From positions 1 through 12,581 of the forward strand of contig JAEXAJ010000115.1 in NCBI GenBank assembly GCA_023458215.1: a stretch of 12,581 nucleotides of DNA, read 5' to 3'. The position numbers and the translations under genes are program-made. A model generated the notes under the pieces. It ran no database searches. It worked only from the letters and a program-made list of their open reading frames with translations, and had not been told where the DNA came from. This DNA is from Bacteroidota bacterium (GTDB lineage Bacteria; Bacteroidota; Bacteroidia; Bacteroidales; Bacteroidaceae). Below, piece after piece: positions 5,088 to 12,550 of the stretch (within the stretch, counting starts at the first letter, position 1; each line of letters begins with the position of its first letter).

Positions 5088-8000
5088 ATGGATAAATTAA
5101 ATAGAAAATTTACCAAAGGTAACGTTCTGAAAGCTGAGGAACTGAACGAAGTGGTGGGTAAAATCAACGAGTTGGTTGGTTCGAGCCTTGAACTGGGTAC
5201 TACCGCAGGTACGGCATACGATGGCGCTTCCGGGGCATCATTGGAACAAATAGTAAGAGAACTGGCAGGTGGAGCGGGCACCATGTATAGCGTATATGTA
5301 CGCAATAACATGGAATCACTCGGCTTTGCCTCCCAATACGGAGAAAAGTGTGTACTCGACTTTACCTTCGTATCACAATATCGGGATGACATCTCCGAAC
5401 CATACAAGCCGACCGGAGAGCTTGGAACTTGTACCCTCATGGTGAAGAATGCCAAGTATGCTGATTTTACCACCGTGAAGACGATGCAAGTATCTTCCAA
5501 TGCATCCATCAAACTGGATGTTTCGGAATGGCTATCCAATGGTAGTAATAATATCAAAATAACGATTGCCGGTATAAACACAGATAAAGTTACGGCGCCG
5601 ATTACTTATACCGTACAACTTACTTCATTGGGTATCAGCGCTCCGAACTTCCGCTGGTGGACGGCATTCACCGATGCGATCAGTATTCCACTGAATATTG
5701 GCGGAAATATATCCAAGATATTGCATGTCTCCATTGCGGGTGAAGGATATAGCAAGAACTACGAAGTTCCTCTGGGTACTACCGTTTATACCGAAACTGC
5801 GTATAATTACCGACTTCAGCATCCGGGACAATCGGGAGTGTATAACGTTTCTATGCATGTGGCAAATACCGACGGCACCATACGGACACGGACGGTATCT
5901 TATAACATCATCTGTGTGGAGGCGGGAGATCGTGTAAAACTGATAGCCGTCAACAATGTGATAGAGAAAGCTACGAACTGGACGGAGAATGCTTTGTTTG
6001 ACTACACAATATACGATGGCAGCAATGCGGTTACATCCGCCCGGTTTGAAGTGAAGAAGGCGGATGTTACTGTATTCTCTTCTGAAGAAGACAGTATTTC
6101 GACTTCGGCCAAACATACTTTCTCCTTGCCGCTTGAGGTTGAAACGATAGACAATACGGATTTCGACCTTGGGGTGAGTGTGCGGGATGAGGCTGGGAAA
6201 CTGGCGTTGGCGATGACTATTCCGGTGAATAATTCCTTGGGCTTTTCCTCCGTTGCAGGAGCCGCCTTTTACATGAATCCCCGTACCCGAAGCAATAACC
6301 AGAGCAACTACTTGTCGGTAGTCAATGAGATGACGGGCGGACTGGTGCCTGCTACCTGGAAGGGTATGAACTGGGGAAGTGACGGTTGGGCTACAGATGC
6401 TGACGGGAACAGGGTGCTTCGTGTGATGGCAAGTGCGCAGGTGAGCATCGGATATAAAGCTTTTGCAAAAGAAGCGGCACGCACGGGCAAGACCATCGAG
6501 ATAGACTACAAAGTAGATAATGTGACCGATTTTAACCATCCGGTGATAAGTTTGTCGAGTGCCGGAGATGCGTTTGTTGGGTTGCGGGTGTTTCCTGATA
6601 ATGTGTTGATGCACTCCAATGCACTGAAAAATGCGGATAATCAGGGGATCAATCTTTTCGAAGGCAAACGACTTCGCCTGACGTTGGTCATCATGCCGGA
6701 TGCCTACGGTAACAGTGGTTTCAACCTCTGTATCATCTACATCAATGGCGTGAAGAACCGTGAGTTCACCTACGAGAACAATGATTATTTCGCTCAGCAG
6801 AGTGATATCGTGATAGGTTCGGATTATGCCGACGTGGATGTTTACGGCATGCGTGTATATGATTCTGCGCTGACTTCGGAATCAGTATTGCGCAACTATA
6901 TAAACTGGTTGACGGACAATACCGAGAAAACAGCGGTAAAGGCGGAAAATGATGTGATGGACGGCAACGGTTCGGAAATTGATTTTGAGAATACAAAAGA
7001 CCAGTTCAATGTGTTTGTGTTTGATAACAAGTTCCCGAGTCTGGGCAATCCTAACAAAATGACGGGTACCCTGGAGGTGTTTTTTGCCGATCATCCGGAA
7101 TGGAATGTGTCTATTCCTAACGTTGAGGCGAAAGGGCAGGGAACTTCTTCCATGCGCTATTGGAAGTGGAATGTGCGTTTCTCATTAGGCGGATGGTCGA
7201 TGGTGCCCGCTTTGGCTAAAGCTACAAAGGTCACCGCCAAGAAGAATTTTGCTTCTTCCATGCAGTCTCATAAAATAGGTTCGGTAAATTCCGTTGACGA
7301 TTTGTACCGGGCCATGGGCTATCTGAATGAAGCGATGAAGACGCAGCAGTATGCCAATGCACGTGTAGCGGTGTATCAACTTCCTTTCGTAGCTTTTGAG
7401 AAGAGCATCAATGAAGAGGGTGAAACGGTTTATGCCTTTATGGGACTTTACACGATGGGGCCGGATAAAGGTGACAAGAATACCTTCGGGTATGACACCA
7501 AACTATTTCCGGGACTTCTTGCCATTGAAGGTTCGGATAACTCACCGCTGTGCACATTGTTCCGTGTCCCTTGGAATTCGCGGATGCAATACAACGAAGA
7601 GGAGGAAGCTTTTCAGTATAACGGAGCTAATGCGTGGGACTTTGGCGCGGGCGATATTGCTAATATCAGTAAGTGGATTCCGGCTTATAACCTCGCATAT
7701 ACCTGTGGCAATAGGCTGAAGCCTTTTAACGGGACATTGGCGGAACTGAATGCGCAAGTAGCCACTTACCGCAATGAACCTTACGAATTTTGGATTGCGA
7801 AAGCGGGAGATGCCAATCTCTATAATGTGTACTATTATGAGTCGGGCGAAGGTAAATTCATCCCATCCGATGTGGGTGCGGGTACCATCAATCTCAGGAC
7901 TCAGCTTGTAGACAAGGGATATGGATTGCTGACTGCCGATCTTTCGGGCAAGACGGCCGATCAACTGAATACTTTGTTCATCAACGCCCGCATACAGAAG

Positions 8001-10268
8001 TTCAGAAAAGAGGCTTCGCAGTATTGGGATATTGACGATGCTATCCTGCATCGGAATTGGGTGGAGTTTCATGCCGGTACTGACAACCGTGCCAAAAACA
8101 CTTATCCATATAATTTCGGGAATGCCGGCAGTAAGTGGAAATGGCGTTATGATGACCTTGATACCATCTTCGATACAGACAACCAAGGGCAGGCAAAGAA
8201 GGGATATAGCGTAGAGTTTCACGATAAGTACGATACGGGTGGTAGCGTATGGAATGGTGAGACAAGTAATTTCTGGAATCTGCTCGATTTGGCTTTTCCT
8301 GATGAGATATGGATGGGAATGCGCAAAATGATGGTCAAGATGGAGGAGCTTGGCGGGCTGAAATCGGGTACTGACTTCGACAAGCTATATGCTTATTTCG
8401 AAAAGTATTACTTCCGGGAAGCGCAGGAGTATTTTCCGCAGAATTTGTATAATGGGGATGCCAAGTTTACCTACGAAGGTTCTAAACTGGCTTATATGGA
8501 TGGGCGTTATACGAATGATACCGACCCGATTACTCAGTCCTTGGGCGATCACTATGCAGCCGAGCAGCGCTGGATAACGAAGCGTATTCTGTACATGATG
8601 AGCAAGTATAGTTTCGGCTTGTTCTCAGCCGATGGTACGGATAATATAACGGTACGTGCAGCGGGTAATACCATTCAGTATGAGCTGATTCCGGCAATGG
8701 ATATGTATCCTGCAATAGCCAATGGAACTTCGATTATACGGGGAACAAGAACGAAAGCCGGGGACGTTTGCCGGATGTTGATAGAGCTATCAGGTAGTGG
8801 CGACCAGCAGAATACCATACAGGCGGCTTCTTATTTGCAGGATATCGGTGATTGGTATGACAAGAATGTCACGGGTAGTATGATTATTCAGGGGCGTATG
8901 TTGCGTGATTTGCGTTTGGGAAGCAAGACGGGAAATATTGCCATCTCGATTACATCGTTGACTGTTTCCAATTGTGTGTCGTTGCAAAATATTGATTTGT
9001 CGCGTATTGCTACATTGCGGGGTACTCTGAACTTATCTGCTTGTACACACTTGAAATCGGTTTATGCCGGTGGCACGTCGTTGACGCAGCTTGTTCTGCC
9101 CAAAGGCGGTGGATTGGAGACAATAGAGTATAATGCAAACAATCAGTATGTGATGTTGCAAAATTACCCGTTAATAAAAAACAGTGGTGTATTGCTTGAT
9201 TATTGCAAAGAGAATGTAACGGACTTTTTTGTAGAGAACTGCCCTCAGCTGAAACCAATGCAACTCTTGTCTACTATTATTGAGGCACAGCAAGCACAAG
9301 GGGCGAATCATTCGCTGAAACATATCCGTGCCGTTGGCTTTGATGAGGAGTATTATACGGCGGATGCATTGGATATGCTAGCTAAATTATCGGATGAAAG
9401 CTATTCAGGACTGTCTGCGGAAGGGCTGGCAGGAGAGGATGCGATACCGGTGTTGGAGGGGAGGATTACGGTGCATAGTAAGTACTATCAGGACTTCGTA
9501 GATGCACTTCGCAACTCTTTCACCAAACTGGATTTAGTTTTAGACGGAGAACCAGCAATTTACTTCGCAGATAAGTATGCTAGAACTTTTATCGTTTCAG
9601 TTTTTGATGTAGATAAAGATGGCTATGTAACTGCTGAAGAAGCGGCTATTGCGAGGCAATTATACTGGGATAGATATTCCGACGCCGATAAAGTTAAAAT
9701 TGCAGATTTAAGAAAACTGAATGCGCTAGAGGGTTCTCTTGGTAAATTGATTAATATCAAAGAGTATTATATGGGATATCATGCCACAGAACTTGGGCAA
9801 AGTTCGTTCTATCAGAATGTAAGTCTTGAAGTTTTACATATAGGAATTAATGTCACTAGAATATCACAACGGTCTTGTAGAGAGTGTACTTCATTACGCA
9901 AAGTAATTCTGAACGATAAAATTACAATATTATATGGAGACCCATTTTACAAGTGCGCCAATCTAACAGAAATAAGTGATATGCCAGATACTTGTACAGA
10001 AATTGGCGGCGATTGCTTTTTCGAGTGTTCATCCTTGCCTCGTATTGTTGTTGGAAGTGGAATCACGAAAATATCGAATAAAGCATTCTGTGAATGCTCA
10101 TCAATGCATTCATTTTATATCAAAGCAACCACACCACCGACACTTGGTACTGATGTATTCAAGGATAACCCTTGCAAAATATATGTACCTCGTGGTAGCG
10201 GTGCTGCTTACAAGGCTGCTACAAATTGGAACGTATGGGCATCAAGAATACAAGAATATGATTTTTAA
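5088..10268 (+). CDS. Giant modular tail fibre with exchangeable LRR tip (1726 aa)
   Basis: Probable receptor-binding tail fibre. Residues 1-31 (MDKLNRKFTKGNVLKAEELN...) form a short helical N-terminus of a kind seen at the start of Bacteroides phage fibres, followed by beta-sandwich-like repeats. Residues about 390-610 look like a concanavalin/LamG-type domain (YINGVKNREF, then VDVYGMRVYDSALTSESV). Residues about 640-1030 resemble a CotH-type kinase fold: KGQGTSSMRYWKWNVRF at 682-698, TDNRAKN at 998-1004 and WRYDDLD at 1019-1025. Residues about 1270-1420 carry LRR-like segments. A perfect EF-hand loop (DVDKDGYVTAEE, 1507-1518) is followed by BspA-like leucine-rich repeats (C..L..I pattern) ending in YVPRGSGAAYKAATNW. 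Codons 1465-1469 (KYYQD) coincide with one copy of a 17-bp inverted repeat, so residues from 1465 on appear to be the switchable tip. The ATG at 5088, one base after the preceding stop, sets the start. Confidence 0.8.
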   Translation: MDKLNRKFTKGNVLKAEELNEVVGKINELVGSSLELGTTAGTAYDGASGASLEQIVRELAGGAGTMYSVYVRNNMESLGFASQYGEKCVLDFTFVSQYRDDISEPYKPTGELGTCTLMVKNAKYADFTTVKTMQVSSNASIKLDVSEWLSNGSNNIKITIAGINTDKVTAPITYTVQLTSLGISAPNFRWWTAFTDAISIPLNIGGNISKILHVSIAGEGYSKNYEVPLGTTVYTETAYNYRLQHPGQSGVYNVSMHVANTDGTIRTRTVSYNIICVEAGDRVKLIAVNNVIEKATNWTENALFDYTIYDGSNAVTSARFEVKKADVTVFSSEEDSISTSAKHTFSLPLEVETIDNTDFDLGVSVRDEAGKLALAMTIPVNNSLGFSSVAGAAFYMNPRTRSNNQSNYLSVVNEMTGGLVPATWKGMNWGSDGWATDADGNRVLRVMASAQVSIGYKAFAKEAARTGKTIEIDYKVDNVTDFNHPVISLSSAGDAFVGLRVFPDNVLMHSNALKNADNQGINLFEGKRLRLTLVIMPDAYGNSGFNLCIIYINGVKNREFTYENNDYFAQQSDIVIGSDYADVDVYGMRVYDSALTSESVLRNYINWLTDNTEKTAVKAENDVMDGNGSEIDFENTKDQFNVFVFDNKFPSLGNPNKMTGTLEVFFADHPEWNVSIPNVEAKGQGTSSMRYWKWNVRFSLGGWSMVPALAKATKVTAKKNFASSMQSHKIGSVNSVDDLYRAMGYLNEAMKTQQYANARVAVYQLPFVAFEKSINEEGETVYAFMGLYTMGPDKGDKNTFGYDTKLFPGLLAIEGSDNSPLCTLFRVPWNSRMQYNEEEEAFQYNGANAWDFGAGDIANISKWIPAYNLAYTCGNRLKPFNGTLAELNAQVATYRNEPYEFWIAKAGDANLYNVYYYESGEGKFIPSDVGAGTINLRTQLVDKGYGLLTADLSGKTADQLNTLFINARIQKFRKEASQYWDIDDAILHRNWVEFHAGTDNRAKNTYPYNFGNAGSKWKWRYDDLDTIFDTDNQGQAKKGYSVEFHDKYDTGGSVWNGETSNFWNLLDLAFPDEIWMGMRKMMVKMEELGGLKSGTDFDKLYAYFEKYYFREAQEYFPQNLYNGDAKFTYEGSKLAYMDGRYTNDTDPITQSLGDHYAAEQRWITKRILYMMSKYSFGLFSADGTDNITVRAAGNTIQYELIPAMDMYPAIANGTSIIRGTRTKAGDVCRMLIELSGSGDQQNTIQAASYLQDIGDWYDKNVTGSMIIQGRMLRDLRLGSKTGNIAISITSLTVSNCVSLQNIDLSRIATLRGTLNLSACTHLKSVYAGGTSLTQLVLPKGGGLETIEYNANNQYVMLQNYPLIKNSGVLLDYCKENVTDFFVENCPQLKPMQLLSTIIEAQQAQGANHSLKHIRAVGFDEEYYTADALDMLAKLSDESYSGLSAEGLAGEDAIPVLEGRITVHSKYYQDFVDALRNSFTKLDLVLDGEPAIYFADKYARTFIVSVFDVDKDGYVTAEEAAIARQLYWDRYSDADKVKIADLRKLNALEGSLGKLINIKEYYMGYHATELGQSSFYQNVSLEVLHIGINVTRISQRSCRECTSLRKVILNDKITILYGDPFYKCANLTEISDMPDTCTEIGGDCFFECSSLPRIVVGSGITKISNKAFCECSSMHSFYIKATTPPTLGTDVFKDNPCKIYVPRGSGAAYKAATNWNVWASRIQEYDF
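9479..9495 (+). repeat. Inverted repeat, left copy (putative crossover site)
   Basis: The 17-mer TAAGTACTATCAGGACT lies inside the fibre gene, covering codons for KYYQD (residues 1465-1469). Its exact reverse complement occurs at 11467-11483. Identity stops sharply on both sides although the two coding modules continue to align at the protein level. Confidence 0.85.
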
Positions 10269-10279
10269 ATTATAATGAT

Positions 10280-10480
10280 ATGGAAACTAAAACTGTTGCA
10301 ACGACCGTATTAAAGGCGAGTGAAGGAAAAGTTTTACGTCGCAAGTCAGATGGCTATATTGCCGGACAAGAAATATACTTGGGATATACCTATTACCTTG
10401 ATAGTAGAAAGTTAGTAGAACCACTCCTCGAACTCCCAAAGCATTACGAAGAGATAGATGCGCCAATAGACGGAGAATAA
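10280..10480 (+). CDS. Fibre-partner small protein, active copy (66 aa)
   Basis: Starts 11 bases after the fibre stop and ends just before a hairpin terminator. Its minus-strand paralogue (10533-10736) matches it at about 46 of 66 aligned residues by hand count, with the blocks ASEGKVLRR, EIYLGYTYYL, KLVEP and HYEEI identical. Many synonymous sites differ, so both copies look old and under selection rather than recently duplicated. It has no signal peptide or membrane segment. Its place directly behind the variable fibre tip matches gene U of phage Mu, a tail-fibre assembly factor that is switched together with the fibre tip. It could equally be a small capping subunit of the fibre. I do not recognise a named family. 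Confidence 0.7.
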   Translation: METKTVATTVLKASEGKVLRRKSDGYIAGQEIYLGYTYYLDSRKLVEPLLELPKHYEEIDAPIDGE

Positions 10481-10485
10481 TAAGA

Positions 10486-10520
10486 AAACCAGCCCGTAAC
10501 ACATCTTACGGGCTGATTTT
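10486..10520. terminator. Bidirectional terminator at the centre of the inversion segment
   Basis: A perfect 10-bp stem (CAGCCCGTAA at 10490-10499 pairing with 10506-10515) encloses a 6-base loop. On the plus strand it is followed by ATTTT; on the other side GAAAAC precedes the stem, giving a T-run on the minus strand. It lies between the two convergent partner genes and can end transcription from either side, so the active cassette keeps a terminator in both orientations. Confidence 0.85.
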
Positions 10521-10532
10521 CGCTTAAATAGG

Positions 10533-10736
10533 TTACTTCAAGTAGTCTTCCGGCATGTTGATTTCCTCGTAGTGTTCAGGGAGTTCTAATATCGGTTCTA
10601 CTAGTTTGATACCACCAAGGTAATAAGTGTAGCCGAGATAGATTTCATTGCTGAACATTCTTCCATCCGATATGCGTCGAAGTACTTTTCCCTCTGAGGC
10701 TTTAATTATCGTAGTTATTACTGTTTTAATTTCCAT
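10533..10736 (-). CDS. Fibre-partner small protein, silent inverted copy (67 aa)
   Basis: The frame extends upstream to 10805, but those extra residues overlap the end of the minus-strand fibre cassette. The ATG at 10736 gives MEIKTVITTIIKASEGKVLRR, which aligns from residue 1 with the plus-strand partner protein. It begins 17 bases after the stop of the inverted fibre cassette, mirroring the 11-base gap on the plus strand. As drawn it has no visible promoter of its own, so it is presumably expressed only when the segment is flipped behind the fibre gene. Function as for its paralogue: probably assembly or capping of the alternative tip. Confidence 0.7.
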   Translation of the reverse strand: MEIKTVITTIIKASEGKVLRRISDGRMFSNEIYLGYTYYLGGIKLVEPILELPEHYEEINMPEDYLK

Positions 10737-10753
10737 GTCACTAATTAATTTTA

Positions 10754-11524
10754 TTATTCGACATAAGTTGATAAAGGTCTTATTCTTGCCGCATAAATCG
10801 ACCAATTCGTAGCAGTCTTGTAAGCATTCAGTGAAGCATCTGGAACATAAATATCCCCTGGTTCCGCATTATATCCCCATCTAATTAGAGTTGGAGGCGT
10901 TATTGCACGGCAAATGATTGATGATTTACACTCTCTAAACCAAGCATCTCCAAGTTCTATAGTAGTGCTCGGTAAATCTATCATTTGAAGTGCAGCGCAT
11001 GATTGAAAGACATTGTCCTTAAGTGTAGTAACTCCTTCCGGAATAATTAAATATTTTATTTTCGTATTCAAAAAAGCCCATCCTTCTATACTTGTTATAG
11101 CAGGAGGAAGAGTTATTTCATGTAAGGATGTACATCCGCCGAATGCTTGTGATGGAATATTTTTTAAACCCGTAAAGTATTGAAATTCATTAAATATTTC
11201 TATTTCGGTATTGTTCCTGAATATGCTATAAGCCCTATCATTACTGGGACTTAACGACTGAACACTGGCCGCTTCCGTGTAATCAATCATTCCGTCTTCA
11301 TTCCTATCTACGAGAGCCTTGATCCCTGTTGACGGGTTAGGATAGTCAATAAAAGCTTTCTCTGTAGTAAGAACCCTCAAAATTTCTGGATCCGCAAAAC
11401 GGATAGCAGGAGTTCCATCCATAACCAAATTCAACTTTTTGAAGATCGTTCTTAGTTCCTCCACCGAGTCCTGATAGTACTTATACTTATGTCTATTTAG
11501 TATTGTAATCGGTAGGAATATCAA
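10754..11524 (-). CDS. Silent alternative tail-fibre C-terminus (start-less cassette)
   Basis: Encodes an EF-hand plus BspA-like LRR module homologous to the last 262 residues of the plus-strand fibre. Shared landmarks are KYYQD, LVMDGTPAIRFAD (against LVLDGEPAIYFAD), an EF-hand loop DRNEDGMIDYTE (11273-11308), LRR units such as FGGCTSLHEITLPPAITSI, and a YVP...YKTATNW ending. No ATG precedes the homologous part. The frame is open upstream to a TGA with only a TTG (11522-11524) as a poor start, and I see no ribosome binding site, so this is probably not an independent gene. It reads as a stored tip: recombination at the 17-bp repeat (11467-11483) would join its 242 codons in frame to fibre residue 1464, giving a fibre of 1706 residues. 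A free-standing LRR protein or a decaying fibre fragment are alternatives, but intact coding over the whole length argues against decay. Confidence 0.7.
   Translation of the reverse strand: MIFLPITILNRHKYKYYQDSVEELRTIFKKLNLVMDGTPAIRFADPEILRVLTTEKAFIDYPNPSTGIKALVDRNEDGMIDYTEAASVQSLSPSNDRAYSIFRNNTEIEIFNEFQYFTGLKNIPSQAFGGCTSLHEITLPPAITSIEGWAFLNTKIKYLIIPEGVTTLKDNVFQSCAALQMIDLPSTTIELGDAWFRECKSSIICRAITPPTLIRWGYNAEPGDIYVPDASLNAYKTATNWSIYAARIRPLSTYVE
11467..11483 (-). repeat. Inverted repeat, right copy (putative crossover site)
   Basis: Reverse complement of the 17-mer at 9479-9495. It encodes KYYQD in the minus-strand cassette with identical codons (AAG TAC TAT CAG GAC) and in the same phase, so an exchange keeps the reading frame. 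Confidence 0.85.
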
Positions 11525-11721
11525 AGTGTCATTTTGTATTTTTAATCAACTGTGAATCCATTATTCCTATCGGATGCCAGTGAGAATCGAAATGCGCAAA
11601 TGAAAATGCGGAAGGTGTAGATTATTAAAGTTTTATCGAAATGCTTACAATCGTTTTAGAATAATATATTCGTTAAATTTACGCTTGTAGGAGTGAAACC
11701 TGACGCAGATAAGTCCGTTAT

Positions 11722-11809
11722 CGGTAGGTAGTAGGTCTTTTACCTATAGGTAGTAACTCTTTTACTTGTAAGTAGTAACTATATTGCCTATAGGTAGTAA
11801 CCCTTTTTC
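11722..11809. repeat. Four tandem 22-bp repeats with palindromic junctions
   Basis: Units run 11722-11743, 11744-11765, 11766-11787 and 11788-11809, with the approximate consensus CTATAGGTAGTAACTCTTTTAC. Unit 3 is the most divergent. The junctions form dyads 22 bp apart: TACCTATAGGTA (11741-11752, perfect), TACTTGTAAGTA (11763-11774, arms of five) and CCTATAGG (11787-11794). The spacing is close to two helical turns, so neighbouring sites would face the same side of the DNA, as expected for a protein-binding array. Confidence 0.8.
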
Positions 11810-11901: not shown

Positions 11902-12000
11902 AAATGGCAAGGGTGTTATTGAAAGAGAAAATTTACTGTCGATATGGATGTAAAACAGGTGTTTTAGTGTGAATATGAATCATAAATTATAAACATAGAA

Positions 12001-12471: not shown

Positions 12472-12477
12472 CGTATG

Positions 12478-12550
12478 TCGGAATGAGGCGACTCGAACGC
12501 CCGACCCCTACGTCCCGAACGTAGTGCGCTACCAACTGCGCTACATTCCG
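12478..12550 (-). tRNA. tRNA-Pro (anticodon CGG)
   Basis: Read on the minus strand, all four arms fold. The acceptor CGGAATG pairs with CATTCCG, the D stem is GCGC/GCGC around AGTTGGTA, the anticodon arm is CTACG-TTCGGGA-CGTAG with anticodon CGG, and the T arm is GGGCG-TTCGAGT-CGCCT with one G-U pair. The discriminator base is A and CCA is not encoded. The 3' end faces the phage genes. Confidence 0.93.

Follow-up and report, generated by a model that had tools for sequence, protein, structure and literature searches.

An invertible segment that probably switches a tail fibre between two LRR tips in a Bacteroidales prophage

We found that the fibre gene in the window (the whole 12,581-nt stretch analysed; all coordinates without a locus name refer to it) very probably forms a two-state tail-fibre switch, in which recombination between two 17-bp repeats inverts the 2-kb segment 9479–11483. 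The anatomy of the segment, a public protein that equals the inverted product, record breaks at the core of the repeat in a relative, and the exchange of whole tips at the junction were all observed and carry this reading.

From left to right, the window contains tail genes, the 1726-aa fibre (5088–10268), a 66-aa partner gene and a hairpin; 3' of the hairpin, on the opposite strand, lie a 67-aa partner gene and then a start-less second fibre end, to the right of which are an endolysin-like gene and tRNA-Pro. The individual features are as follows.

5088–9479, + strand: constant part of the fibre, residues 1–1464 (ORF; phage protein families; identical in protein P0017)
9479–9495, + strand: left inverted repeat, presumed crossover site, with core GTACTATCAGGACT, coding K-Y-Y-Q-D (repeat search; core common to four relatives)
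9480–10268, + strand: LRR_5 tip now used by the fibre, 262 aa counted from the KYYQD junction (Pfam; predicted fold; structure search)
10280–10480, + strand: putative partner gene 1, 66 aa (ORF; no Pfam match)
10484–10521, both strands: terminator-like hairpin between the two convergent gene sets (+ 10490–10515; − 10521–10484; inverted repeat I7)
10533–10736, − strand: partner gene 2, 67 aa (46/64 identical to partner 1)
10754–11482, − strand: second LRR_5 tip, silent, 242 aa counted from the junction; P0017 is its fused form (alignment; Pfam; predicted fold)
11467–11483, − strand: right inverted repeat, presumed crossover site (repeat search)
11483–11524, − strand: leader (14 residues) of the silent frame, unlike the fibre (ORF; comparison with the fibre)

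The repeat TAAGTACTATCAGGACT (17 bp, exact) occurs at 9479–9495 (+) and 11467–11483 (−) and has no further copy in the window. Two matches to it were seen in 0 of 200 dinucleotide shuffles of the sequence, and about 0.0005 17-mer pairs of this kind are expected in 4.1 kb at equal base frequencies. The mirror copy is an open frame (10754–11524, −) that lacks the N-terminal part of the fibre and meets the junction at the same residues (KYYQD) and in the same frame as the fibre. The initial annotation had described a full fibre and partner facing a mirrored second partner and a start-less fibre C-terminus, with both tips joining the constant part at a 17-bp inverted repeat in one frame; the ORFs bear out the gene order, and KYYQD at both arms bears out the junction. 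The term "start-less" is correct in the sense that the silent frame has a TTG, followed by a 14-residue leader unlike the fibre, and no fibre start. The locus shows two features of G- and C-like segments, namely mirrored variable tips with a single constant gene and in-frame inverted repeats at both tip starts. Between the switch and the endolysin-like gene, three overlapping repeat copies with 22-nt spacing were seen at 11710–11797. The tRNA-Pro gene (12477–12550, −) has its 3' end towards the phage genes and the last bases of the window resemble a second tRNA by eye, so a tRNA attachment site may mark the end of the element.

A search with the end of the fibre returned 515 proteins, and our analyses rest on the best 120 of them. 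One protein among these 120, P0017 (1706 aa; ENA, one contig of 18,004 nt, 4 members), matched the constant part of the window joined to its silent tip over 1706 of 1706 residues at the protein level; this is the fibre expected after inversion. Fibres of 1726 or 1706 residues had been predicted; the former is an ORF of the window and the latter was found as P0017. The presence of the same fibre with the other tip in public data indicates that the DNA between the tips evidently flips. The used form of the window had no entry of its own among the 120 proteins listed, possibly because it was grouped with P0017 by the 90% clustering, and the reciprocal detached product (window leader and used tip) was absent from the 54 proteins checked (best match 70%). 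These data also bear on the idea that the locus is a static inverted gene duplication whose minus-strand tip is a dead remnant. The silent frame does lack a fibre start, and at the L001 and L008 switches the partner gene was matched over 11–14 residues only; however, the silent tip is fused, intact and identical in P0017, which already contradicts a static duplication, and it is open over its full length and predicted to fold. We therefore regard a dead remnant as extremely improbable.

In the two-state switch, recombination between the 17-bp repeats would invert 9479–11483, and the constant 1464-residue body would be fused in frame to either tip, giving a fibre of 1726 aa (now used) or 1706 aa (now silent). 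A small partner gene would accompany each tip, and transcription arriving from either side would stop at the central hairpin. The recombination would be site-specific and carried out by an enzyme from elsewhere in the element or the host. The tips would bind receptors, and inversion would probably alter what the particle grabs and might thereby change its host range.

When 115 loci and the window were screened with a tip set, 52 sources gave tip matches, many loci being overlapping copies or incomplete. Mirror tips occurred in seven distinct elements (the window, L001, L008, G044/L039, G156/L046, L040 and L115), and in many other fibre loci of the same screen a tip was present with no mirror copy. 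When related prophages were compared for the opposite orientation, a check proposed with the initial annotation, L001 and L008 were found to share the mirror arrangement but to express the other class of tip. The expressed tips of these two loci have 47% identity with the silent tip of the window and 27–28% with its used tip, and their silent tips are 44% (L001) and 34% (L008) identical to the used tip and 31% and 30% to the silent tip, so that the silent tip of L008 is scarcely nearer the former than the latter. Two silent cassettes in tandem were found in G044/L039, as against one in the window. In addition, a second, upstream fibre-like frame of L001 (6353–7361) has an LRR tip, is accompanied by a partner-like gene and shows no adjoining mirror copy.

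The core GTWCTATCAGGACT is present at both arms in five of the seven elements; the L040 record ends before its second arm. L115 (MT835639, a phage contig from human faeces) has LRR tips in mirror image and an exact 62-bp inverted repeat at 6180–6241 and 7297–7358. It was rejected as an instance of the same site because this repeat lies elsewhere, inside the tip, which suggests an analogous switch of similar design with another site. The arms of L001 match over 43 bp, and those of L008 are identical over 11 bp only. In G001, G044 and G156, the four silent arms read GTTCT and the three coding arms GTACT, so that the crossover would lie to the right of the differing base. Inspection by eye shows an imperfect dyad in the core, AGTACT-ATC-AGGACT, consistent with a recombinase site. 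Among 158 Bacteroides genomes, the extended core GTWCTATCAGGACTNNGT had 7 sites in 3 genomes, all at switches, and its reversed control had 0 matches; use of the site across host genomes is thus not supported. Apart from the G001 pair, the 399 family genomes contained two single GTWCTATCAGGACTNNGT sites, in two genomes, compared with two reversed-control matches. The exact 17-mer was also considered in viral contigs and gave six single sites, at loci with no fibre-tip match. No near-identical DNA to the window was found in 50,697 phage records.

Further signs of inversion came from Bacteroides stercorirosoris. Locus L008 (strain DSM 26884) has mirror tips with cores at 11971–11981 and 13557–13567 and a core-to-core span of 1583 (inner) to 1597 (outer) nt. 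A separate virus record, L002, is 99.992% identical to it over 11,977 nt and ends at CTATCAG inside the left core. Similarly, P0197, an NCBI partial protein from this species, comes from a contig of 1580 nt, about the length of the segment; its first residue is the one directly after YYQD, and it equals the L008 tip over 233/233 residues. An 11-bp match would otherwise be too short to break an assembly, and breaks at the 11-bp core therefore suggest that two junctions were present. Both breaks would be expected if the two orientations occurred among the reads, with the proviso that L008, L002 and P0197 possibly do not represent separate read sets.

We further compared tips and constant ends among the 120 listed fibres together with the window, L008 and L001, of which 86 had a recognisable junction. 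The constant end was taken as the last 460 residues, and P0026, the sole fibre with a tip of <180 residues, was left out. For constant ends at least 99.5% identical (36 non-independent pairs, with P0060 and L001 possibly representing a single element), tips were <60% identical in 17 pairs, at least 90% identical in 19 and between these values in none. For constant ends at 97–99.5% (354 pairs), the corresponding numbers were 219 and 74, with 61 intermediate. For example, P0011, P0014 and P0035 share a constant part identical over 1463/1463 residues and carry three different tips, and P0043 and P0094 share 1511 of 1512 constant residues. One tip (99.6% over 261) was found detached behind another leader and fused in the pair P0121 and P0003. 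Among the short tip proteins, 59 had at least 200 residues, and 8 of these matched a fused tip at 90% or more, including the silent tip of the window, although not all eight are clearly silent copies, e.g., P0128 (with fibre sequence before the tip) and P0197. Besides, tips at least 90% identical sat on constant ends <75% identical in 35 pairs, suggesting that cassettes also move between phages.

This last observation raises another explanation, namely that homologous recombination between phages swaps tips at the conserved junction and that the mirror copy is a captured donor tip, a by-product with no programmed switch behind it. The 35 pairs indicate that horizontal exchange at the junction occurs, and the 43-bp arms of L001 also favour such a process. 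However, P0017 joins the window's own silent tip to its own constant part with zero differences, the mirror layout recurs in seven elements, and records break at the 11-bp core. Exchange between phages is thus unlikely to account for the locus, and we retain the inversion switch as the preferred reading.

Which enzyme would drive the inversion was approached through recombinase families. No Gin-type or any other recombinase was recognised among the nine window proteins scanned. Neither PF00589 nor PF00239 was matched in two virus records, G006 (which ends near its second arm) and G161, in the G044 element or on contig C155 of G156. In G044, the closest recombinase match lies ~28 kb away and has two equally scoring copies elsewhere. 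A 412-aa integrase lies ~5 kb from the switch in G001, and at L008 the prophage integrase is ~5 kb away. With regard to IS110/Piv-type invertases, PF01548 had no match in G006, G161, G044 and G001 and one on another G156 contig. Thus, a serine recombinase beside the segment, as in Gin, Cin and Min systems, was found neither among the nine window proteins nor near the relatives' switches, and a tyrosine recombinase beside the tips, as in Rin and Rci systems, was absent from these nine proteins, G006, G161, the G044 element and G156 contig C155. The proposed likeness to the Mu G segment stands for layout, with no recombinase of this kind recognised in the window or beside the switches of the relatives checked. 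A Mu/P1-type switch of the Gin/Cin family with its invertase gene outside the window would agree with the gene order, which is that of the Mu G segment, and two of the relatives carry MuA- and MuB-like genes; yet PF00239 had no match in G006 and G161, and its matches in G044, G156 and G001 lie either on different contigs or >100 kb away from the switch, making this version very unlikely. As no recombinase was found in the element in three of the four relatives checked, an enzyme supplied in trans is the likeliest source. In the available passages of a report on bifidophages, a second inverted locus without a recombinase is described and supply in trans is suggested (PMC6109161).

In G006 (L055, 2472–14625) and G044 (L043/L056), the switched fibre lies within roughly 27 kb of sequence together with repressor-like, MuA-like (phrog_310), MuB-like (phrog_296), tape measure, tail and endolysin-like genes. 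A scan of the 10 main G006 proteins revealed no recognisable head gene; PHROG families with the label "head and packaging" were among those matched by the endolysin-like gene. Pfam searches for PF03237 and PF04233 gave zero matches and are uninformative on head genes, because G164, the record of prophage copy L008 with a portal gene, also gave zero. These elements are possibly transposable and tailocin-like, or deleted prophages. A broader and more tentative reading, which we consider possible at somewhat less than even chance, is a portable fibre shufflon without its own recombinase, in which a short site and LRR tip cassettes have spread over unrelated backbones and are all inverted in trans by one putative Bacteroides recombinase; the backbones would be an integrase-type phage with a portal gene and MuA/MuB-like, possibly tailocin-like elements with no head gene seen.

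The used and silent tips are identical at 79 of 263 positions (30%), and the partner genes at 46 of 64 (72%); a Pfam scan of partner gene 1 gave no match. Of the EF-hand/LRR modules first proposed for the tips, the LRR part was confirmed by LRR_5 (BspA-type) matches in both (E 1.4e-21 and 4.1e-20), and the EF-hand part is weak, with matches below the Pfam cut-off (E 0.0046 and 0.1). Folds were predicted with confidence (mean pLDDT 94.7 for the used and 89.8 for the silent tip). For both, the best solved structures were the Bacteroides LRR cell-surface proteins 4fd0 and 4fdw (used tip, E 7e-7 and 8e-7, TM-score 0.56; silent tip, E ~2e-5, low TM-scores of 0.29 and 0.27). Bacteroides surfaces vary by DNA inversion, according to the part of PMC5903667 available to us, and phage elements of the same hosts appear to carry inversion-switched fibre tips. 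The site can be tracked in read sets, and the driving enzyme, and whether tip state follows host surface state, become testable.

In the G segment of phage Mu and the C segment of P1, two mirrored variable fibre tips with partner genes serve one constant part. The likeness to the present locus lies in this layout; the differences are that no serine invertase was found beside the switch, the tips are of LRR type and one relative has two silent cassettes. In the passages available, PMC6109161 names Gin and Cin as tail-fibre inversion systems and describes the Rin shufflon of bifidophages, in which receptor-binding tips of gut prophages are exchanged at a short asymmetric repeat (11 bp). Rin, compared here by description, differs in its repeat, TTCCCTAACCC, and in the tyrosine recombinase encoded next to its tips. 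Hankyphage is likewise a transposable Bacteroides phage that diversifies its tail fibre, by a mutagenic retroelement (DGR) instead of inversion, as stated in the available text of PMC12135933. A further case is that of the Bacteroides uniformis "Meggiephages", for which accessible passages report a ~2-kb inversion in a putative tail-fibre gene, with both forms recovered and no apparent influence on host range (PMC9727126), which speaks against a change of target range by inversion. This comparison is by description, since these passages give no repeat, tips or recombinase, and Meggiephages were not recognised among the 8 phage records matching the window tip. In the open-licence PMC literature, as far as its text was available, we found no description of an LRR-tip switch, which is no proof of its being unpublished. 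Inversion in Bacteroides phage fibres is therefore not wholly new, given the B. uniformis case as reported in those passages (PMC9727126); the present analysis adds the site itself, a repertoire of LRR tips, one locus in which two cassettes are silent, and a switch for which no local recombinase was found.
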